NCBI RefSeq assembly: GCF_000152945.2 | Contig: NC_020830.1 | Span: 1,808,501 to 1,872,500, forward strand | Direction of reading: 5' to 3' | DNA from: Polaribacter sp. MED152 | GTDB lineage: Bacteria; Bacteroidota; Bacteroidia; Flavobacteriales; Flavobacteriaceae | DNA length: 64,000 bases | Part shown: one piece after another, positions 30,967 through 40,345 of the stretch | Position numbering within the stretch: the first letter of the stretch is position 1 | Layout: the number at the start of each line of letters is the position of its first letter | Notes under the pieces: model-generated | The model's input: the letters and a program-made list of their open reading frames with translations, nothing else | What the model was told of the DNA's origin: nothing | Databases searched by the model: none | Made by a program: the position numbers and the translations under genes

Positions 30967-31707
30967 ATGAATTTAACACTTAAAATTTGGCGTCAAAAAG
31001 ATGCTTCAACCAAAGGTAAAATGGTTGATTATAAAGTTACTGAAATTTCAGAACACATGTCTTTTTTAGAAATGATGGATGTTTTGAACGAACAATTGGT
31101 AAACTCTGGTGAAGAACCAGTTGCTTTTGACCATGATTGTAGAGAAGGTATCTGTGGTATGTGCTCTATGTATATTAATGGTGAAGCACATGGACCAGAT
31201 AGAGGTGTTACTACCTGCCAATTACACATGCGTATGTTCAAAGATGGCGATACTATTACTATAGAACCTTGGAGAGCTGCAGCCTTTCCTGTAATCAAAG
31301 ATTTAGCAGTAGATCGTTCTGCTTTTGATAGAATACAACATGCAGGAGGTTACATCTCTGTAAATACCTCTGGTAATACTCAAGATGCAAATGCAATACC
31401 AATTAAAAAGGAAGCAGCAGATACAGCAATGGATGCAGCAACCTGTATTGGTTGTGGTGCTTGTGTAGCAACTTGTAAAAATAGTTCTGCAATGTTATTT
31501 GTAGGTGCAAAAGTATCTCAATATGCTTTATTACCTCAAGGACAAGTAGAAGCAGCAGACAGAGTTAGAAATATGGTTGCTCAAATGGACTTAGAAGGTT
31601 TTGGAAACTGTACAAATACAGGTGCATGTGAAGTTGAGTGCCCTAAAGGAATTTCTTTAGACAACATTGCAAGAATGAATAGAGAATTAATGAAAGCCTC
31701 AGTTTAA
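30967..31707 (+). CDS. sdhB: succinate dehydrogenase / fumarate reductase iron-sulfur subunit
   Basis: 246 residues. The 2Fe-2S site is CREGICGMC with a distal cysteine in GVTTCQLH. The second cysteine set is [11 protein letters not shown] and [12 protein letters not shown], for the 4Fe-4S and third clusters. It passes electrons from SdhA's FAD to the SdhC quinone site. The operon ends here with a strong terminator. Fe-S maturation could use the suf operon in the same window. Confidence 0.97.
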
Positions 31708-31760
31708 GAACAAGGTTATTAACTCATTTAAATTTCTAAAATTTTAGAAAACAATCTAAT

Positions 31761-31796
31761 AAACCCAAAATGAAAAATCATTTTGGGTTTTGTTTT
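31761..31796 (+). terminator. strong terminator of sdhCAB
   Basis: AAACCCAAAATGA (31761-31773) and TCATTTTGGGTTT (31778-31790) form a perfect 13-bp stem with an AAAA loop, then TGTTTTA. The stop codon of the convergent XRE gene overlaps the T-rich tail. Confidence 0.92.
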
Positions 31797-32049
31797 ATTG
31801 CTCAAAATCTTCAAAGAATTCCTTAGGTGTTATATTAAGCGTATCTAAAATTTCAAAGAGCCTATAAACATCTAACTTAGTCTTACCTGTTTCTACCTTA
31901 AAATAGCCACTGTATGTTAAGTTAAGTTGTTCAGATATATCCCATTGAGTTAAACCTAACTCTTTGCGCCTATCTACTATTTTCTTTAAAACTAATTGCC
32001 TATTTAACTCAGATTTTTCTATTTCTTTTTCTTTAGCTTTCTCCCCCAT
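31795..32049 (-). CDS. XRE-family helix-turn-helix regulator
   Basis: 84 residues from ATG 32049 (MGEKAKEKEIEKSEL); a TTG at 32082 would add 11 residues. The HTH is seen in VDRRKELGLTQWDISEQLNL followed by TYSGYFKVETGKTKLDVYRL and FEILDTLNITPKEFF, a complete Cro/CI-type domain with a short charged N-terminal helix. Such proteins bind as dimers to inverted repeats. A perfect 25-bp inverted repeat lies 76 nt upstream of the ATG (43 nt from the TTG), so autoregulation is plausible. It is divergent from the peptide, GLPGLI and receptor genes and may control them. Confidence 0.85.
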   Translation of the reverse strand: MGEKAKEKEIEKSELNRQLVLKKIVDRRKELGLTQWDISEQLNLTYSGYFKVETGKTKLDVYRLFEILDTLNITPKEFFEDFEQ

Positions 32050-32087
32050 TATTTTTGTAATCCTTCTTTTTATTCCTAACAATAGCT

Positions 32088-32095
32088 CAAAAATA
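32088..32095 (-). promoter_or_regulatory. -7 box of the XRE gene
   Basis: The minus strand reads TATTTTTG, about 38 nt before the ATG at 32049. The inverted repeat begins 30 nt further upstream, where an operator would be expected. Confidence 0.5.
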
Positions 32096-32124
32096 AGTTA
32101 AAAGTTTGATACAGTAATTTCCAA

Positions 32125-32180
32125 TTTGGACTACCCATTTATGGGGATAAGGGTGTATCCCCATAAATGGGTAGTCCAAA
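32125..32180. repeat. perfect 25-bp inverted repeat in the XRE / peptide intergenic region
   Basis: The left arm is 32125-32149 and the right arm 32156-32180, with no mismatch, separated by AGGGTG. Each arm also carries a nearly symmetric core (CCCAT-TT-ATGGG and CCCAT-AA-ATGGG), giving two potential small sites inside one large dyad. The arms are clearly richer in G and C than the surrounding sequence. It could be an operator pair for the XRE protein, an RNA hairpin or a small mobile-type repeat. Confidence 0.85.
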
Positions 32181-32584
32181 ATAGGAATTAAATTTTTTGT
32201 AGAAAAACTCTAACTTTATTAAATTAGAAGAAAATTGCTCAATTCTTACAACTTCTCCCATTGTAATAATTACACTAAATTAAATCACTTTTTTTACTGG
32301 TACATAAATTTTTAGTGCAATTGAACACTAATAAAAACAAAATATTATTAACCTAAAAAAACCTCCGCTTGCGGAAATAAGAAATATAAAAATCTTGCAA
32401 ATAAATGTATCACTTAAAACCATTGCCTATGTAAATAAACAATAACAAACAGAGGAAGTGTTGCAAAAGTAAACCTTTTTCTACAAGTTTTTAGAGAATT
32501 TTAAACTTGTTGACTCATATAAAACTCAAAATATTTTTTAAATCAAAAAATCCCAATTAACGTTTGGGTTAAAAATTTTATATT
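32181..32584. other. non-coding AT-rich stretch with small inverted repeats
   Basis: No plausible gene on either strand. Three small dyads are visible: TCCGC-TT-GCGGA (32364-32375), ACAAGTTT...AAACTTGT (32483-32490 and 32503-32510) and CCCAA...TTGGG (32552-32568), the last only 16 nt before the ATG of the interrupted peptide gene. No convincing TTTG/TAnnTTTG promoter was found for that gene; TAAACTTG near 32502 is the nearest approach. Confidence 0.6.
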
Positions 32585-32848
32585 ATGAAAAAATTAATTT
32601 TAGCAATAATTTTTGTTTTTGCAACAGGAACTATTATGAATGCGAATACTTCTAACGAAGAAATAACTTAACCAACAACAGAAACTATTGAAGTAGTTGA
32701 AGATTTTGGTTGTAGAAGTGAGTGTAATGCAGATGCGAGGTATTGGGCTTTAGAATTATCAGAAGACCAAGAAGATAGAGGTGCAGGTGGTGAATTAATG
32801 ACTAAGTGGGCAGAATATTATAGTTCATGTGTAGATGCTAGATGCTAA
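32585..32848 (+). pseudogene. small exported four-cysteine peptide gene interrupted by an in-frame TAA
   Basis: An ATG opens a 28-codon frame with a typical signal peptide (MKKLILAIIFVFATGTIMNA followed by NTSNEEIT). It stops at TAA 32669-32671. The same frame then stays open for 58 more codons to TAA at 32846, encoding an acidic segment with four cysteines in two CxxxC-like pairs (GCRSEC and CVDARC). A single C-to-T change of a CAA codon would explain the stop. From memory, small proteins starting MKKLILAIxFVFATG with a short cysteine-containing tail are common in flavobacteria and uncharacterised. No start codon lies between the stop and the cysteines, so the second part is probably not made unless the stop is read through. 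Confidence 0.7.
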
Positions 32849-32870
32849 TTTTTTTAACCATTAAATTTAA

Positions 32871-32898
32871 TGTCTAGAGAATTTTCTCTAGGCATTTT
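32871..32898 (+). terminator. hairpin between the peptide gene and the first GLPGLI gene
   Basis: TGTCTAGAGAA (32871-32881) pairs with TTCTCTAGGCA (32884-32894) with one G-U pair, followed by TTTT. The short T-run suggests a partial terminator or processing hairpin that would lower downstream expression relative to the peptide. Confidence 0.6.
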
Positions 32899-32909
32899 AA
32901 AATATATTT

Positions 32910-33644
32910 ATGAAACAACTAAAATTAAATTTCTTTTTATTTTTCTTCTGCTTAATATCAAATTTATCAAGTCAAAATAGCATATCAGGATTTATTAACT
33001 ATGAATCAACTATAAGTAGTAAAAAATTAGACGATTATTTAACTAACAAAAGAAAGAAAATAAAAAATCAAAGAGAAAGTGTTCTTGAGTCATTAGATAA
33101 GGTTTATTTATATACAACTCCAATAAAATCCAAATTAACCTTTTCTAAAGGTGAAGGTTTATTTATTGTTGAAGATAAATTAAGTACAGATATACATAAT
33201 TTAGGTCAAAGATATCAAAAAATAAGTGCTGGTGGCTCAAATGAGTATTATTACAATGAGCATACAAAAACGTATTTAATAAAAAATTGCGAAGCATTAG
33301 GCGAGTGTTTTATTTTTGATAATAAATATTTAGAATGGAAATTGACTCAAGAATCTAAAATAATAAATGGTTATAAATCTTACAAAGCAACAAGAAGTAA
33401 TGGTAAAGTAATTGCTTGGTACACTCCTGCAATTCCTATTAATTATGGACCTAAAGGAGAATATGGCTTACCAGGTTTGATTTTAGAATTAGAAATAGGA
33501 AAAATAATTTTTAAAGCCACTAAAATTATATTAAACCCTAAAGAGAAAGTAAATGTACAAGAACCCAAAGGGGGTAAAAGGGTCTCTTATGAAGAATATA
33601 ATAAAATTATGAAAAAAGCTAAAAAAAGTGTTTTTGGTAATTAA
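32910..33644 (+). CDS. GLPGLI family exported protein (first copy)
   Basis: 244 residues with a signal peptide (FLFFFCLISNLSSQNS) and no lipobox. The naming motif GLPGLI lies at residues 186-191, after WYTPAIPINYGPKGEY, exactly the family context. The C-terminus is lysine-rich. The family is restricted to Bacteroidetes as far as I know, is exported, and often lies beside genes for TonB-receptor-like barrels; its biochemical role is not established. The next gene encodes a second copy and the third a barrel, so it probably acts at the outer membrane with them. Confidence 0.9.
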   Translation: MKQLKLNFFLFFFCLISNLSSQNSISGFINYESTISSKKLDDYLTNKRKKIKNQRESVLESLDKVYLYTTPIKSKLTFSKGEGLFIVEDKLSTDIHNLGQRYQKISAGGSNEYYYNEHTKTYLIKNCEALGECFIFDNKYLEWKLTQESKIINGYKSYKATRSNGKVIAWYTPAIPINYGPKGEYGLPGLILELEIGKIIFKATKIILNPKEKVNVQEPKGGKRVSYEEYNKIMKKAKKSVFGN

Positions 33645-33710
33645 TCTATTTCAACCTATCGACTTTGAAACTATGCAATATTATTTTCGTTCTTAAAAGA
33701 AAACATCGAG

Positions 33711-34439
33711 ATGAAAAACTACTTTTTTACTTTATTATTAGTTATTTCATTAAATGGATTTTCTCAAAAAATCAGTGGAAAAGTAACGTATGTAGTTTCA
33801 ATGGAATCTTACACAAAAGAGAAAATAGACTCAATTTCTAAATCTTTTAAAAAGAAAAATGTAAAAATGGACAAATGGATGAGAGATATTTTGGAAAACA
33901 CTCCAGATGTAAAAGCATTTTTAGAATTCAACAATACTGAATCTTTATATTTTGTAGAAGATAAAATGCAAAATGATGGCAAACCAACCTATAACGTAAA
34001 CAGAACTTCTGCTGGTGGAAATGATAAGTATTACAAAAACACCAAAACAGGAGAATATTTTAAAGAAAATAGCACTTTTGGAGAATTATTGCTCATAGAA
34101 ATTGATACAAAAAAATGGGAAATAACACAAGAATCTAAAAAGATAGGAAACTATTTGTGTTATAAAGCCATAGATATTGCCTCTACAAATAGAAAAATGA
34201 AACCTGTAGTTTGGTTTACACCAGAAATACCTGTCAGTTTTGGACCTCTAAAATTTAATGGTTTGCCTGGCTTGGTTATTTTGGTAGAAATGTCAAAAAG
34301 AACAATTAGTACATCAGAAATAATTTTAAATCCAAAAGATAAAATTATCATTAATAAACCAACAAAAGGCGATAAAATTACTGCTGAAGAAGCTAGACAA
34401 AGAGGAGCTGCTATGTGGAAAAAAATAGAAAAACAATAA
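33711..34439 (+). CDS. GLPGLI family exported protein (second copy)
   Basis: 242 residues, signal peptide MKNYFFTLLLVISLNGFSQK. The family motif appears as GLPGLV at residues 184-189 after WFTPEIPVSFGPLKFN. It shares the SAGGxxxYYxN, W-x-x-TQESK and ILNPK(D/E)K blocks with the preceding protein, so the two are tandem paralogues that have diverged widely. The gene ends 10 nt before the receptor-like gene, which argues for co-transcription. Function as for the first copy: unknown, probably periplasmic or outer-membrane associated. Confidence 0.9.
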   Translation: MKNYFFTLLLVISLNGFSQKISGKVTYVVSMESYTKEKIDSISKSFKKKNVKMDKWMRDILENTPDVKAFLEFNNTESLYFVEDKMQNDGKPTYNVNRTSAGGNDKYYKNTKTGEYFKENSTFGELLLIEIDTKKWEITQESKKIGNYLCYKAIDIASTNRKMKPVVWFTPEIPVSFGPLKFNGLPGLVILVEMSKRTISTSEIILNPKDKIIINKPTKGDKITAEEARQRGAAMWKKIEKQ

Positions 34440-34449
34440 GTTATCATTT

Positions 34450-37098
34450 ATGAAAAAGAAACTCCTAATTATTTTTGTACTTACAATTTCGTGTTTTAGT
34501 TATTCCCAAAAAGTAACGTTAACGGGTTTTGTAAAAGATAGCTTACAAAACCCTTTGCCTTATGCAAATGTAATTTCAAAACCCAAAGATGTTTCTAAAA
34601 ATTTGCAATTTGCAATTACTGATAACGAAGGGTATTACAAGCTAATTTTACAAAAAGGAGATACGATTACTATTAGTATTTCTTATTTAGGTTACATACC
34701 TTTAGATTATGAGTTTGTTGCATTAAAAGACACAAAAAAAGATTTTATTTTACAACAAGCTTCAGAGCAATTAGATGAGGTGGTTATAGAAATGCCAGTA
34801 ACTGTAAGAGGAGATACCACTACTTACAAAACCAGTAAATTTATAGATGGTTCAGAACGCAAATTAAAAAATGTGTTAAAAAAGCTACCAGGCGTTGAGG
34901 TAGATAAAAATGGTGGAGTTACTGTGCAAGGTAAAAAAGTAACCAAAATGTTAGTAGATGGCAAAAAATTTTTTGGTGGTAATTCTAAGTTAGCAGTAGA
35001 AAATATTCCAGCTGATGCTGTGGGTAATGTAGAGGTTATTGATAATTACAACGAAGTTTCCTTTTTAAAAGGCTTGTCAGATTCAGATGATATGGCTATG
35101 AACATCAAACTAAAAGAAGATAAAAAACGCTTTGTTTTTGGTGATATAGAAGCTGGTAAAGGCAATAAAGATTTTTACAAAGCAAGTGCTAATTTGTTTT
35201 ATTATTCTCCGAAAACGAATGTTAATTTTATAGGGAACATTAATAATATTGGCGAAAAAACTTTCACGTTTAGAGATTATATGAGTTTTTCTGGTGGAGT
35301 AAATGCAGTTTTTAGCGGTAATTTTAGTTGGAAAGGTGGCGACTTTTCTCAGTTTATGCAAAGTAATGATATGTTGAGTAGTCAACATAAATTTGGAGCT
35401 TTAAACATAACCAAAGTAGCTACAAAAAAATTAGATGTTTCAGGTTATGCCATTGTTTCTAATTCAGAAACAGCAAGTTTCATAGAAAATTTAAATGAAT
35501 ACACTACGTTTTCAGAAAAAAGAACCAACACAACAAATGCAGATAACCTTTTAGGTATTGGTAATTTAAACTTAGAATACAACCCTAATTCTAAAGAAAA
35601 ATGGTATGCCAGAAGTCAAGTAAAAAGAACCAATAATATCAATAATAACAGTTTAATTTCTTTGATTGATGGCAATACAAACACTATAAACACAGATAGA
35701 GATTTAACAGCAACCTACATCAACCAAAATATAGAATGGCATAAAAGACAAAATGATAAACACACGTTTTCTTCTGTTTTTAATTATGTGTTCGATAAAA
35801 GTGATAAAACTACTTTTTGGGACACACAAGATCCTATTTTACAAGGTTTAATTCCTGCTGATAATAACCAAACTTTATTACGAATTAATCAACTTAAAAA
35901 TACACAAGAGCATAATTTTGATGGTGTTTTTAAACATTTTTGGGAAATTAATAACAACAATCATATTTATACAACTTTAGGTAACAAATTTAGTAATGAA
36001 AATTTTATAACTGATGATAGTCAACTTTTAGATGATGGTACTATAAACAACTTTGCACCAGATGGTTTTGGAAACGATGTAAACTTTAAATTAAACGACT
36101 TTTTTGTTGGTATGCATTATAAATTTAGAACAGGCATATTTACTGTAAAACAAGGTTTTGAAGCTCATAATTACAGTTGGTCTTTACAAAATCAAACCAA
36201 TTTAGATAAAAATAAGTGGGTGGTTTTACCAGATTTTTTAGCAAAAATTGAGTTTACTAAATCTAAAAAAGTTACTATTAATTACAATTTAAAAACATCG
36301 TTTTCTGATGCCAGTAGATTTGCAAATCGTTTTTATTTACAATCGTACAATTCCGTTTTTAGAGGAAATGAAAATATAGAAAACAATTTATATCATGCTG
36401 CAAGAATTTATTACAGTAGATTTAGTTTGTTCAGAGGTTTAATGCTGTTTGCAAGTTTAAACTATAACAAACAAATAAGAGGTGTTAGAAATACAGTTGA
36501 TTTTAATGACATCAACCAATTTTTAACGGTAAAAATGTTTGATAATCCTTCAGAAAATTGGCGTGGAAATATTCATTTAGAAAAATCCATAAAAAAACTA
36601 AAGTATAAGTTCGATATTGGTTTTAACAACTCAAAATACATACAAGAATTAAACAATAACATCCAAACCAACACAAATAACAATTACGATTATGAGTTAG
36701 GTATTCAAACCTTAATTGATAAATTTCCAACAATAGAAGTTGGTTTAAAGAGAACAATAGGTAATTTTACAGCAAGTACAAACACTTCTAAATTTGTAAC
36801 TACAGAGCCTTTTATTACTATAGATTATGATTTTTTAGAAAGCTTCATTTTTAATTTTGATTACAGAAAAAGCAACTATCAAAATAAAACATTAGATCAA
36901 AAAAACACGTATGAAATTGCTAATGCAACGCTTTCTTATAAAAATGAAGATTCTGCTTGGAGTTATAAACTAACAGCACAAAACTTGTTTAATGCACAGT
37001 TTAAACAAAGCAACAGTTTTTCAGACTTTTTAATTTCAGATCGTAAAACCTTTATTTTACCAAGAATCATAATGTTGTCTATTGGGTATAATTTGTAA
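34450..37098 (+). CDS. TonB-dependent-receptor-like outer-membrane beta-barrel protein
   Basis: 882 residues with a signal peptide (IIFVLTISCFSYSQKV). About residues 23-105 form a carboxypeptidase-regulatory-like domain (LTGFVKDSLQNPLPYANVIS). A plug-like domain follows at about 125-225 (LKKLPGVEVDKNGGVTVQGK, NIPADAVGNVEVIDNYNEVS). The remainder is barrel-type beta sequence of the family that commonly accompanies GLPGLI genes, ending in MLSIGYNL with a terminal hydrophobic residue. No clear TonB box was recognised. The substrate is unknown; import or export of a small peptide is possible given the upstream cysteine peptide gene, but this is speculation. It ends 4 nt from a convergent gene. 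Confidence 0.88.
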   Translation: MKKKLLIIFVLTISCFSYSQKVTLTGFVKDSLQNPLPYANVISKPKDVSKNLQFAITDNEGYYKLILQKGDTITISISYLGYIPLDYEFVALKDTKKDFILQQASEQLDEVVIEMPVTVRGDTTTYKTSKFIDGSERKLKNVLKKLPGVEVDKNGGVTVQGKKVTKMLVDGKKFFGGNSKLAVENIPADAVGNVEVIDNYNEVSFLKGLSDSDDMAMNIKLKEDKKRFVFGDIEAGKGNKDFYKASANLFYYSPKTNVNFIGNINNIGEKTFTFRDYMSFSGGVNAVFSGNFSWKGGDFSQFMQSNDMLSSQHKFGALNITKVATKKLDVSGYAIVSNSETASFIENLNEYTTFSEKRTNTTNADNLLGIGNLNLEYNPNSKEKWYARSQVKRTNNINNNSLISLIDGNTNTINTDRDLTATYINQNIEWHKRQNDKHTFSSVFNYVFDKSDKTTFWDTQDPILQGLIPADNNQTLLRINQLKNTQEHNFDGVFKHFWEINNNNHIYTTLGNKFSNENFITDDSQLLDDGTINNFAPDGFGNDVNFKLNDFFVGMHYKFRTGIFTVKQGFEAHNYSWSLQNQTNLDKNKWVVLPDFLAKIEFTKSKKVTINYNLKTSFSDASRFANRFYLQSYNSVFRGNENIENNLYHAARIYYSRFSLFRGLMLFASLNYNKQIRGVRNTVDFNDINQFLTVKMFDNPSENWRGNIHLEKSIKKLKYKFDIGFNNSKYIQELNNNIQTNTNNNYDYELGIQTLIDKFPTIEVGLKRTIGNFTASTNTSKFVTTEPFITIDYDFLESFIFNFDYRKSNYQNKTLDQKNTYEIANATLSYKNEDSAWSYKLTAQNLFNAQFKQSNSFSDFLISDRKTFILPRIIMLSIGYNL

Positions 37099-37102
37099 AT
37101 CT

Positions 37103-40100
37103 CTACTTAAAACTATACGTTTTTAAACTATCATTATTTGCAAGTACAAGTAACAAGTTCTTATTTTTCATTTTAACAACTGCAGTTGTCTTGATTTGAT
37201 TATGAAAAGGTTGCATACCATATTTAGAAACAGGTTCTACATTCTTTACATCACTCATAAAATAACCTTTTAAGGCTGTATAACCACCATGATATGTATT
37301 TACCTTTAAAGAATTACCAGATATTAATAGTTGATTTTTATTATTAATATTAACTTTTGTGAAAGAGGTAATTGGCCCCATTTGTAAACTGGCCTCAAAA
37401 GGTACAAAGTCGCTAAATTTGCCATTGTTATTTTCTAAGTAACCAGAAGACAATGTATTTATTTGACTTCTTTTAGCTTTAGCTATTATAGAATCATTAA
37501 ATATTTTATTAAAAGGAGTTAGCGCAAAATTTGCATGATTTACAAACTTCTTACTCATCACATTCATTTGTGAAGCCAATTCATCTTTTGTGTTTAGAGG
37601 ATAATATTCATCACCTACCTTATAGGTTATAATACTTTCCTTTTTTCCGTTTTTATCAAAGTCTCCAAAATAGAAATAAATAGGATTATCGATATACTTT
37701 GTAAACCTATTATTCTCTCCCCAATTTCCTAAAACAATGTCTTGATCTCCATCTAAATCCACATCAAAAGTGGCAATGCTTTGCCATAAACCATGTAAAC
37801 TTTCTGGCAATTCTTGTAAGGTAAAATTACCATTGTTGTTGATGTAAATCTTAGGAGTGTCCCACTCTGAAGCAATCAATAAATCTTTTTGATCATCGTT
37901 ATTCACATCAGCCCAAACAGCATCTGTAACTCTACTATTAAAATTAAATTTTAAGTGAATAGTATAGTTTCCTTTACCATCATTGTTTAAAATTGCAGAA
38001 TTTACTGTGGCTCCAAAACTACCAGGATTGGATAAGTTACCAATAAAAATATCTTCATCTCCGTCTTTATTATGATCGTAAGCAATAATTGTAGAGGTGT
38101 TTAATGGATTGATTAACGTTTTATTTTCAGATCGTTTAAAGCTACCATTCGTATTAATGTACAAACGATCTATTTCATAATTCTGATTTCTTTTTTCATG
38201 AATACCAGAAGCTACATAAAGGTCTAAATCTCCATCTTTGTCAATATCTATAAAAGCAGCATCATTATCTTCAAAAGCCTTGTCTGTTTCAAATACTGCT
38301 GGTATATTTTTTTTGAATGATGTACCAGAATTCATATAAAGTGCAGCAGCATTTCCAGAAGAACCTCCTATAAAGATATCTTCAAAACCATTATTATCTA
38401 TATCTGCAATGGTTAATGCTGGCCCAAGAGTAGAAACTTTATAAGGCAACAGTTTTTCGGAAAAAAAGTCGTTATAAGAATCTTCTTCGTGAACATAATC
38501 AATTAAATTTTCTTCTTCAAAAGTTTGATTAATACTGTTTTTTGCATCAGCTTTAAACAATCTTTTAGTTGATGAGTAGGTGATTTTTGTAAGCTGATTT
38601 GCAGAAATACCTTCAATTTTTTGAACTTCTAAATTTGGCCAAATAACCAAAACTGAGTCAATTTTAGCAATTGTATCTAAACCAAAATGAACCTTAGCTT
38701 CTGTAGAAGATAAAAAACCTCTCGATTTAAAAATTTGTTTGGTTTGCTTTTTACCATTAGAATATAAATGAACTTTAGCACCTATAGCTTCTTTATTATT
38801 GTCTTTATATGTTAATTGAAATGAAGCTGATTTTGTTGTAGCTGAACTCTTATTTTTAAAAATACCTGCAGGCGCATTTACGTTATTGGTTACCAAGTCT
38901 AAATCGCCATCTAAATCTAAATCTACATATACAGCCCCATTAGATAAAGAAGCTTCTTTGGCTAGCCAATTGCCTGTAGTTTCTTTAAATCTTGCAGAAT
39001 TACCTTTAAATATTTGATTTGGAACACTTCCACTTGGCATTTCATTTATTGATTTATACAACCAATCTACTCCTTTCTTTTGACCATATTTTTTAAAGGT
39101 ACTAGATACATATTTTTTAAAATCTAAACTGTTAGGTCTTCTTAGAATTCCGTTAGAAATAAATAAATCTTGATGACCATCGTTATTAAAATCAGCAAAA
39201 AGAGGAGACCAACTCCAATCTGTATCTGCAACCCCATTATACAAAGCAGTTTCGTTAAAGTATTCTCCATTTTGATTGATTTGAAGCATGTTTCTAGAGT
39301 ATTGATCTCTGTACCCTAAATTTTTAAGATTGGCTTGCATGTTAAGCATAGCATCATCTCCTTCTGTTTCTTTTAGTACTTTTTCGTCATTTGGCAACAT
39401 GTCTAAAGTAATGATGTCTTGATAACCATTGCCTGTAATATCTGCTGCATCACTTCCCATAGAAAAACGACTTATAGTAGAAAATTTAGAGGCTAATTCT
39501 TCTGAAAACGTACCGTTTTTATTGTTGATGTAATAGTAATCATCTTCATGAAAATCGTTACACACGTAAATATCATCCCAACCATCATTATTAAAATCTG
39601 CAATAGAAGCACTTAAACCATAACCATTTACACCACCAAAAATGTTAGCCTCTGTACTTACATCTATAAATTTACCATTGTTGTTCTGCAGTAAAACATC
39701 GCCAACCAAAGGCATTCTCTTATTTCGTTTAGAGGCTTTACCATGAGATAAGTTAGTATGCACTGCATGATTTACAATGTAAACATCTAAATCACCATCT
39801 TTATCATAATCAAAAAAGTAAGATTGTGTACTATACCCTTTAAAATCTAAACCATATTCTGTAGATTTTTCTGTGAATGTATTATCGCCATTATTTATAT
39901 ACAATTCGTTATGACCTTGAAAATCTAAAAGTTGAGAAACTGCACATACATAAATATCTAAATAGCCATCGTTATTAATATCAACCATGGTAACCCCAGT
40001 ATTCCAATCAGCATTGCTCTTAATCTTAGATTTTTTGGTAATATCTTCAAATTTAAAATCGCCTTTATTTAAATAAAGCTTATTTTGATTTTGATTAGAA

Positions 40101-40345
40101 ACAAAAAATAAATCTGGTAAACCATCATTATTAATATCGCCAGTTGCAACACCTCCACCATTGTAAAAATAGATGTAGTTTATAATGCTATGATTGGCAT
40201 CTTCTGTAAGCTGATTCTTAAAATCTATGCCTGTTTCTGAGGCTGCAACTTGATTTAGAAGATAGTTTTCTGAAGGCTCTTTCTTACACTTGCTAAACGT
40301 AAATAGGACAATAAGGGCACCTAAAAGTAAATATTGCTTGGTCAT
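37103..40345 (-). CDS. large FG-GAP/VCBS-repeat lipoprotein with ASPIC/UnbV domain
   Basis: 1080 residues, lipobox cysteine at about 20 (LFTFSKCKK). Many calcium-binding-type FG-GAP loops D-x-N-x-D-G-x-x-D-L/I are visible: DINNDGLPDLFFVS, DINNDGYLDIYVC, DKDGDLDVYIVN, DLDLDGDLDLVTN, DIDNNGFEDIFIGG, DIDKDGDLDLYVAS. Around residues 530-580 lies an ASPIC/UnbV segment (VHFGLDTIAKIDSVLVIWPN). Such CRTAC-like proteins are surface-exposed and common in Bacteroidetes, often near carbohydrate-use loci, but no susC/susD pair is next to this one. Its role may be in adhesion or polymer binding. It stands alone, convergent with the receptor gene. Confidence 0.88.
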   Translation of the reverse strand: MTKQYLLLGALIVLFTFSKCKKEPSENYLLNQVAASETGIDFKNQLTEDANHSIINYIYFYNGGGVATGDINNDGLPDLFFVSNQNQNKLYLNKGDFKFEDITKKSKIKSNADWNTGVTMVDINNDGYLDIYVCAVSQLLDFQGHNELYINNGDNTFTEKSTEYGLDFKGYSTQSYFFDYDKDGDLDVYIVNHAVHTNLSHGKASKRNKRMPLVGDVLLQNNNGKFIDVSTEANIFGGVNGYGLSASIADFNNDGWDDIYVCNDFHEDDYYYINNKNGTFSEELASKFSTISRFSMGSDAADITGNGYQDIITLDMLPNDEKVLKETEGDDAMLNMQANLKNLGYRDQYSRNMLQINQNGEYFNETALYNGVADTDWSWSPLFADFNNDGHQDLFISNGILRRPNSLDFKKYVSSTFKKYGQKKGVDWLYKSINEMPSGSVPNQIFKGNSARFKETTGNWLAKEASLSNGAVYVDLDLDGDLDLVTNNVNAPAGIFKNKSSATTKSASFQLTYKDNNKEAIGAKVHLYSNGKKQTKQIFKSRGFLSSTEAKVHFGLDTIAKIDSVLVIWPNLEVQKIEGISANQLTKITYSSTKRLFKADAKNSINQTFEEENLIDYVHEEDSYNDFFSEKLLPYKVSTLGPALTIADIDNNGFEDIFIGGSSGNAAALYMNSGTSFKKNIPAVFETDKAFEDNDAAFIDIDKDGDLDLYVASGIHEKRNQNYEIDRLYINTNGSFKRSENKTLINPLNTSTIIAYDHNKDGDEDIFIGNLSNPGSFGATVNSAILNNDGKGNYTIHLKFNFNSRVTDAVWADVNNDDQKDLLIASEWDTPKIYINNNGNFTLQELPESLHGLWQSIATFDVDLDGDQDIVLGNWGENNRFTKYIDNPIYFYFGDFDKNGKKESIITYKVGDEYYPLNTKDELASQMNVMSKKFVNHANFALTPFNKIFNDSIIAKAKRSQINTLSSGYLENNNGKFSDFVPFEASLQMGPITSFTKVNINNKNQLLISGNSLKVNTYHGGYTALKGYFMSDVKNVEPVSKYGMQPFHNQIKTTAVVKMKNKNLLLVLANNDSLKTYSFK

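Follow-up and report, generated by a model that had tools for sequence, protein, structure and literature searches.

A Polaribacter locus as one state of a putative cassette array of small exported peptides, GLPGLI proteins and a common TonB-receptor-like barrel

The window analysed here, a stretch of 64,000 nucleotides (nt) from Polaribacter sp. MED152 (NC_020830.1, positions 1,808,501 to 1,872,500; the source genome is one 2.96-Mb contig), carries at positions 31795 to 37098 an XRE-type regulator gene, a small peptide frame, two tandem GLPGLI genes and a gene for a TonB-receptor-like barrel protein. We read this locus as one state of a cassette array, in which each GLPGLI protein would bind its own peptide in the periplasm and work with a common barrel, and we hold this reading with about even confidence. 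In Polaribacter relatives the locus consists of a divergent XRE gene, a repeated peptide-GLPGLI module and a barrel: up to five peptides occur, each ahead of a GLPGLI gene, with one terminal barrel and, in some loci, internal barrel remnants. Twelve of the 16 loci recovered with the barrel protein are Polaribacter by name. A preliminary description of the window had pictured a single regulated unit; its elements are present, but it overlooked the broken peptide gene and the variable, array-like nature of the locus.

Peptides and their partners covary. Across 73 pairs, the similarity of the mature peptides correlated with that of the GLPGLI proteins following them (r = 0.674), and 0 of 2000 permutations reached this value, either at random (0.00 ± 0.03) or within arrays (0.286 ± 0.065). 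After the removal of close GLPGLI pairs the correlation was 0.478, with 0 of 1000 permutations as high. The leader gave r = 0.11 with the same GLPGLI proteins, and the mature peptide gave r = 0.161 with the barrel (57 modules, L084 left out). In the 23 modules with two GLPGLI frames longer than 190 residues, the first GLPGLI protein covaried with the peptide at r = 0.741, the second at 0.116. Moreover, all 15 four-cysteine peptides have a cognate GLPGLI protein with a cysteine loop, although related pairs are not independent, and the Fisher value for this association should not be read as a probability. The loop motif is also found in 5 of 58 other GLPGLI proteins (L084 again left out), which by eye are two damaged four-cysteine relatives, two probable relatives and one false motif.

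Sequence comparison further indicates that modules can be moved or replaced while the barrel has a history of its own. Loci L087 and L089 have a common module with identical GLPGLI genes (synonymous divergence, dS, 0), and their barrels differ at dS 0.53. Between loci L100 and L107 the leaders are identical and the barrels are at dS 0.11; their mature parts differ at a nonsynonymous divergence (dN) of 0.45 and dS 0.57, and their GLPGLI genes at dS 0.49. By this pattern, the mature part and the GLPGLI gene behave as one unit that can be exchanged, flanked by a leader and a barrel that both stay constant. Positive selection was considered and rejected: over 39 pairs dN/dS was 0.15-0.78 for mature parts and 0.09-0.36 for GLPGLI genes, and values above 1, seen in 60-base leader comparisons alone, were taken as noise.

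Then, we evaluated how regularly the genes occur together. At E ≤ 0.001, matches to a peptide profile were present in 52 of 146 genus genomes, or in 44 of 110 when good genomes alone are counted; these figures include weak, doubtful matches. Our sample joined 40 regions around the better matches to the window and three named loci, for a total of 44 loci (L009 left out). A GLPGLI gene directly followed 77 of the 79 peptide records, a figure conditional on having picked loci by a peptide profile built on barrel-linked loci; one exception lies at a contig end and the other before another peptide record. The gene sdhB was inside the stretch in 18 of the 40 regions, as in the window. The weak profile matches G034, G117 and G123, once examined, all proved to have a peptide, a GLPGLI gene and a barrel. 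In locus L114 (G055:C1:2707000-2722000) the array is partly duplicated as an identical stretch, with GLPGLI matches of equal score occurring in pairs some 5 kb apart.

A family-blind rule, set after the peptides had been seen, asked for a small open reading frame (ORF) that begins like a signal sequence, has two or more cysteines further on and stops no more than 220 nt before the gene. It held for 56 of 105 short-class GLPGLI genes (the class seen here) in the 40 Polaribacter regions, and for 20 of 53 in 40 stretches from other Flavobacteriaceae genera, among which the small ORF of L212 looks false and was probably counted. These 40 stretches were hand-picked among the short-frame matches listed, and some are contig ends. 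As controls, barrels gave 0 of 45 in Polaribacter and 0 of 28 in other genera, other long ORFs 4 of 207 and 0 of 75, and long-class GLPGLI genes 2 of 3 (both array modules), 0 of 6 and, in 54 core loci, 0 of 94. Peptide-GLPGLI adjacency is above chance against these controls, and the test proposed in the preliminary description, whether small cysteine peptides occur together with GLPGLI-barrel pairs, is passed, both by the 77 of 79 records and by the family-blind counts.

A peptide search across the family was set aside: it matched 25 of 299 genomes at E ≤ 1e-5, the source genome included, and 4 of the 24 other loci had a GLPGLI gene and a barrel. In the remaining 20 of 24 the match was a small protein, in most cases an acidic lipoprotein, whose signal sequence is similar. 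Class-wide, a strong short-class match was found in 20 of 247 genomes, and a convincing peptide outside Flavobacteriaceae in 0 of 22 loci taken from the other 19 genomes (one belonging to the same family), a weak absence, as many of these loci are long-class. In 14 of the 22 class-level loci the barrel starts within 110 nt of the GLPGLI end. Since GLPGLI-barrel pairs occur at class level without peptides, they may be the older pair, with the peptide cassette added within the family, as far as this weak absence can be relied on.

The peptides themselves have conserved signal sequences and hypervariable, acidic mature parts. In the 64 records with a leader methionine, taking the mature part as what follows residue 20, its length ranged from 41 to 83 residues (median 56.5) and its net charge from -16 to -1 (median -8), all 64 being acidic; 43, 7 and 14 peptides have two, three and four cysteines, respectively. 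Mean pairwise identity was 0.54 for the leader and 0.30 for the mature part; within arrays, the values were 0.73 and 0.32 (38 pairs). Pfam assigned the peptides to no known family, with a weak DUF6520 match in 2 of 56, and NCBIfam gave weak matches alone, such as AimP in 5 of 56 (best E 3.1e-4) and Phr signal-peptide models in 3 of 56 (best E 2.7e-3), which the signal sequence probably explains. These family searches matched no toxin or defence family. The structural model of L003, an intact four-cysteine relative, had a mean predicted local distance difference test score (pLDDT) of 59, with a low-confidence first half and helices predicted at 44-62 and 71-87 with moderate confidence; a Foldseek search with it returned no match at E ≤ 0.001.

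Between peptide and GLPGLI gene lies a gap of about 60 nt with a hairpin, whose stem sequence varies between modules. On z-scores from dinucleotide shuffles (L084 left out), these gaps had a mean of -4.54, with 57 of 73 below -3. The GLPGLI/GLPGLI gaps (mean -0.31, 2 of 47 below -3), GLPGLI/barrel gaps (0.06, 0 of 15) and GLPGLI/peptide gaps (-0.17, 0 of 10) had no such signal. The hairpin is thus specific to the peptide/GLPGLI gap and above chance. It may serve as an attenuator or as an mRNA end, giving a surplus of peptide over partner.

In the window, the locus is laid out as follows.

Ending at 31707: sdhB, the 5' flank of the locus
31795..32082, minus strand: XRE-type (HTH_3) regulator gene, divergent from the array, with a TTG start at 32082 (an alternative in-frame ATG at 32049 is possible)
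32115..32190, strand not applicable: large dyad 5' of the XRE gene, with perfect 25-base-pair (bp) arms at 32125-32149 and 32156-32180
32348..32583, plus strand: conserved element of about 230 nt immediately before the peptide; three hairpins are predicted in it
32585..32848, plus strand: peptide frame, broken copy, with a signal sequence, a TAA at 32669-32671 and 58 codons with four cysteines
32869..32896, plus strand: intercistronic hairpin between the peptide and the first GLPGLI gene, with a 12-bp stem
32910..33644, plus strand: first GLPGLI protein, 244 amino acids, presumed peptide partner, with the cysteine loop CEALGEC
33711..34439, plus strand: second GLPGLI protein, 242 amino acids
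34450..37098, plus strand: TonB-receptor-like barrel protein, 882 amino acids, closing the array
37103-40345, minus strand: large gene, FG-GAP-like as judged by eye

Much of what the preliminary description had listed was recovered here: the minus-strand XRE-type regulator (Pfam HTH_3 34.3 bits, cut-off 23), the perfect 25-bp dyad, now seen to be part of longer 35-nt arms, the hairpin 3' of the peptide frame, the tandem GLPGLI paralogues (TIGR01200 145.8 and 145.4 bits, cut-off 50) and the TonB-receptor-like barrel, whose CarbopepD_reg_2 match is above its cut-off and whose Plug match is below. Of the two neighbours that it named, sdhB stands, and the FG-GAP gene is such by eye alone. Its tiny exported four-cysteine peptide gene, however, is not one intact ORF. 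After the signal sequence and eight more residues the frame meets the TAA, so this copy is either broken or read through; 58 open codons with all four cysteines follow. As this remainder is still open, a recent break of the gene is suggested, and a sequencing error or read-through is possible. Both GLPGLI genes and the barrel gene are open, and intact relatives of the peptide occur in other genomes. Between sdhB and the XRE gene, at 31761-31790, lies a terminator-like dyad with 13-bp arms (AAACCCAAAATGA); palindromes resembling it (AAACCCAAAAC) recur in relatives.

The roughly 230 nt 5' of the peptide are kept in one large group of modules. Of the annotated matches to a profile of this element, 45 of 47 lie directly before a peptide record and two before a GLPGLI gene, a partly circular proportion, since sequences upstream of peptides had served to build the profile. 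Three short hairpins are supported by the alignment; in one stem, two pairs have both partners changed in 14 of the 30 sequences. The element model R1, a freer test, gave 54 matches in 32 of 146 genus genomes, 42 of them inside regions already in the sample. Of the 12 outside the 40 regions, 11 were examined, in nine stretches, leaving out a second copy from the duplicated G055 stretch. In five stretches (L218, L220, L221, L225 and L226) a peptide, partly of another, beta-like type by eye, stands before a GLPGLI gene and a barrel; in L222 the element directly precedes a GLPGLI gene, and L219 and L223 have the element and no peptide. Such stretches, with their differing peptides, suggest that the element and the signal sequence can persist while the type of cargo changes. 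In L224, and at the middle match of L225, the element precedes lipoprotein genes and may drive other secreted products. The GLPGLI gene at L222:8221-8919 begins about 18 nt past the element, and its signal start resembles that of a peptide, as though the peptide gene had been deleted and its leader fused to GLPGLI.

A second module group has a different upstream sequence. One such conserved sequence, GCTAGCTAG...AAGAAGAAGGATGTTTATAAATTGCGCGCATTTTTCTT, stands before the peptides of L105, L107-L109, L111, L112, L115, L116 and L122, and in L085, L087, L089 and L106 a dispersed-repeat-like sequence, TCATTCCGAA...GAAGAGGAATCT, takes the place of part of the upstream element. A known RNA was rejected as a candidate, as all Rfam 15 matches in window 31700-37200 (up to E 10) were below gathering scores; L092, L103, L109 and L083 gave 0 Rfam 15 matches. 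Nor do we claim a Bacteroidetes-type promoter: the consensus TAnnTTTG occurred in 20 of the 66 regions upstream of peptides, where shuffled sequences gave 11.1 ± 3.1, and together with a -33 TTG in 4 of 66 against 1.0 ± 0.9, with no common position.

XRE genes precede the array in many relatives. The window dyad, whose 35-nt arms are 91% matched, scored 26, against 9 for the best of six shuffles of the region, and a dyad scoring at least 15 was found 5' of 19 of 32 XRE genes, with 0 of 32 shuffle maxima that high. The outer arms TTTCCATTTTGG / CCAAAATGGAAA recur; the inner arms, of which at least eight versions can be told apart by eye, remain able to pair. The dyad is a real part of XRE-linked loci; it could be either operator DNA or an RNA hairpin. 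A mobile or repeated element was rejected, since the dyad occurs at a single place in the genome; the strict outer-arm pattern was found in 2 of 146 genus genomes, both times at this locus. A defence system was likewise rejected, with PADLOC giving weak HTH matches for the XRE protein and nothing else. The XRE proteins of L007, L009 and L012 have a long N-terminal KEKEKE / ERERER repeat, possibly a simple repeat of variable length.

GLPGLI proteins (TIGR01200 / PF09697) have, to our knowledge, no known function. They are present in 134 of 146 genus genomes and common in Bacteroidota. The two in the window matched PF09697 (Porph_ging) at 42.4 and 52.2 bits (cut-off 25). The predicted model of the first has the fold of the PNGase F-II bowl and, less closely, may resemble LolA/RseB. 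By sequence, the PNGase F-II N-terminal (NBL) domain PF22252 matched at 16.5 and 22.6 bits, under its cut-off of 27.6, and neither LolA nor RseB was among the Pfam matches up to E 1. Passages in published studies list GLPGLI proteins in expression tables; no peptide partner is described in the titles and abstracts searched, with subscription papers and preprints outside that search. The source genome has three more long-class GLPGLI genes (about 270-280 amino acids), at 2614310-2616012 and 2870437-2871177 (L019-L021), without cysteine peptides; two are in tandem, as are similar pairs in many genus genomes.

The barrel protein has an N-terminal CarbopepD_reg_2 domain (41.4 bits against 32.2), present in 11 of 11 relatives, and a Plug match of 18.1 bits (cut-off 23.9), found in 10 of 11 relatives at E ≤ 1 (best 3.5e-4). 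Its N-terminus matches the SusC homologue 9hfj (E 4.1e-4); matches to plug domains, among them that of the colicin I receptor (E 0.06), are weak. TonB-dependent transport is a putative role of this protein.

On this basis, a cassette would consist of the upstream element, the gene of a small exported acidic cysteine peptide, the intercistronic hairpin and the GLPGLI gene belonging to that peptide, and one TonB-receptor-like barrel would end the array and serve every cassette. The peptide would exit the cytoplasm via Sec, and the hairpin would permit its production above the level of its partner. In the periplasm the GLPGLI protein, with its predicted PNGase-bowl or LolA/RseB-like fold, would bind its own peptide and either hold it or pass it to the barrel in the outer membrane. 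The XRE protein would control the unit. GLPGLI could be a carrier, an immunity protein or both. The preliminary description had proposed that GLPGLI and barrel proteins handle the peptide at the outer membrane, and the covariation and the predicted fold favour such handling by GLPGLI.

The main rival is a polymorphic toxin-immunity system, which we regard as possible though rather unlikely: the peptides would be small antibacterial toxins against close kin, GLPGLI the periplasmic immunity protein, the barrel an export route or receptor, and the extra GLPGLI genes orphan immunity genes. The constant leader, hypervariable mature part and cognate partner behind it fit well, as do the replacement of mature part and GLPGLI between the near-identical neighbours L100 and L107 and the transfer of a whole module between L087 and L089. 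In addition, 45 of 118 open GLPGLI genes lack a peptide, and a simple rule counted 13 of 79 records, the window among them, as having a broken peptide with an open GLPGLI gene (some perhaps being missed start codons), against four in the reverse state, three of them in L083, whose barrel is split too; a peptide without a GLPGLI frame was seen solely in the two exceptions described above. On the other hand, all 64 mature peptides are acidic, which many pore-forming bacteriocins are not; they match no toxin family, and gene-wide dN/dS is above 1 in neither mature parts nor GLPGLI genes. Furthermore, the GLPGLI-barrel pair exists without peptides, and so do the long-class GLPGLI genes (0 of 94), which argues that immunity is not the original role of the family.

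That the peptides are signals or kin-recognition labels, shown or sensed at the surface with GLPGLI and barrel as receptor parts, seems improbable to us. Hypervariable small exported peptides with matching partners, the divergent XRE regulator with the conserved upstream element, and the AimP and Phr matches would agree with it, but these matches are weak and probably driven by the signal sequence, and we noted neither a sensor kinase nor an anti-sigma gene in the unit. Least probable are functionally unlinked neighbours, small genes with nothing in common that have gathered at a variable place in the chromosome. The region next to sdhB is indeed variable, with gene and barrel remnants, and linked inheritance alone yields some covariation; part of the signal could stem from joint inheritance without binding. 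However, the second GLPGLI gene and the barrel are nearly as closely linked and hardly correlated, the pairing is also found with different peptides, in further genera and at sites elsewhere, and the hairpin is specific to the peptide/GLPGLI gap.

If the cassette-array reading is taken further, we can tentatively, and with more doubt than belief, envisage a new polymorphic system, in which hypervariable Sec-exported mini-proteins, swapped as cassettes along with dedicated LolA-like partners, are both neutralised and ferried by these and passed through the outer membrane by the common barrel for kin competition or recognition. If true, this would be the first function for the GLPGLI family. The short class gains a candidate specific partner, a predicted fold relation and a covariation signal. 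Peptides acting on other cells would amount to an unknown peptide arsenal of abundant marine bacteria, and peptides merely exported to a new route to the outer membrane. No description of such a peptide-GLPGLI-barrel system was found within the same literature search.

Several known systems resemble parts of this one. Polymorphic toxin-immunity systems (contact-dependent inhibition, colicin-like) likewise have a constant leading part, a swappable end with its partner gene, and orphan partners; here, the whole protein is a Sec-type precursor of 60-100 residues, the partner has a predicted, possibly LolA-like fold, a common barrel follows, and toxicity is putative. The C-x3-C ... C-x3-6-C pattern occurs in 15 of 73 peptides, and the low-confidence model has two helices, so that some peptides may be alpha-hairpinin-like disulfide peptides; Foldseek returned no match at E ≤ 0.001. 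Within the GLPGLI family, the short class comes here with a cognate exported peptide and the long class stands in core loci without one. The PNGase F-II NBL domain has the fold predicted for GLPGLI, which lacks the glycosidase domain and stands by itself as a protein of about 240 residues, encoded next to a peptide and a barrel. Compared with LolA/LolB and RseB/MucB, the cargo of GLPGLI would be a non-lipidated, variable peptide, each partner having its own. Finally, the SusC-like N-terminus of the barrel recalls the SusC/TonB-dependent receptors that work with SusD; the two proteins beside this barrel have no SusD match, and GLPGLI holds the partner position.

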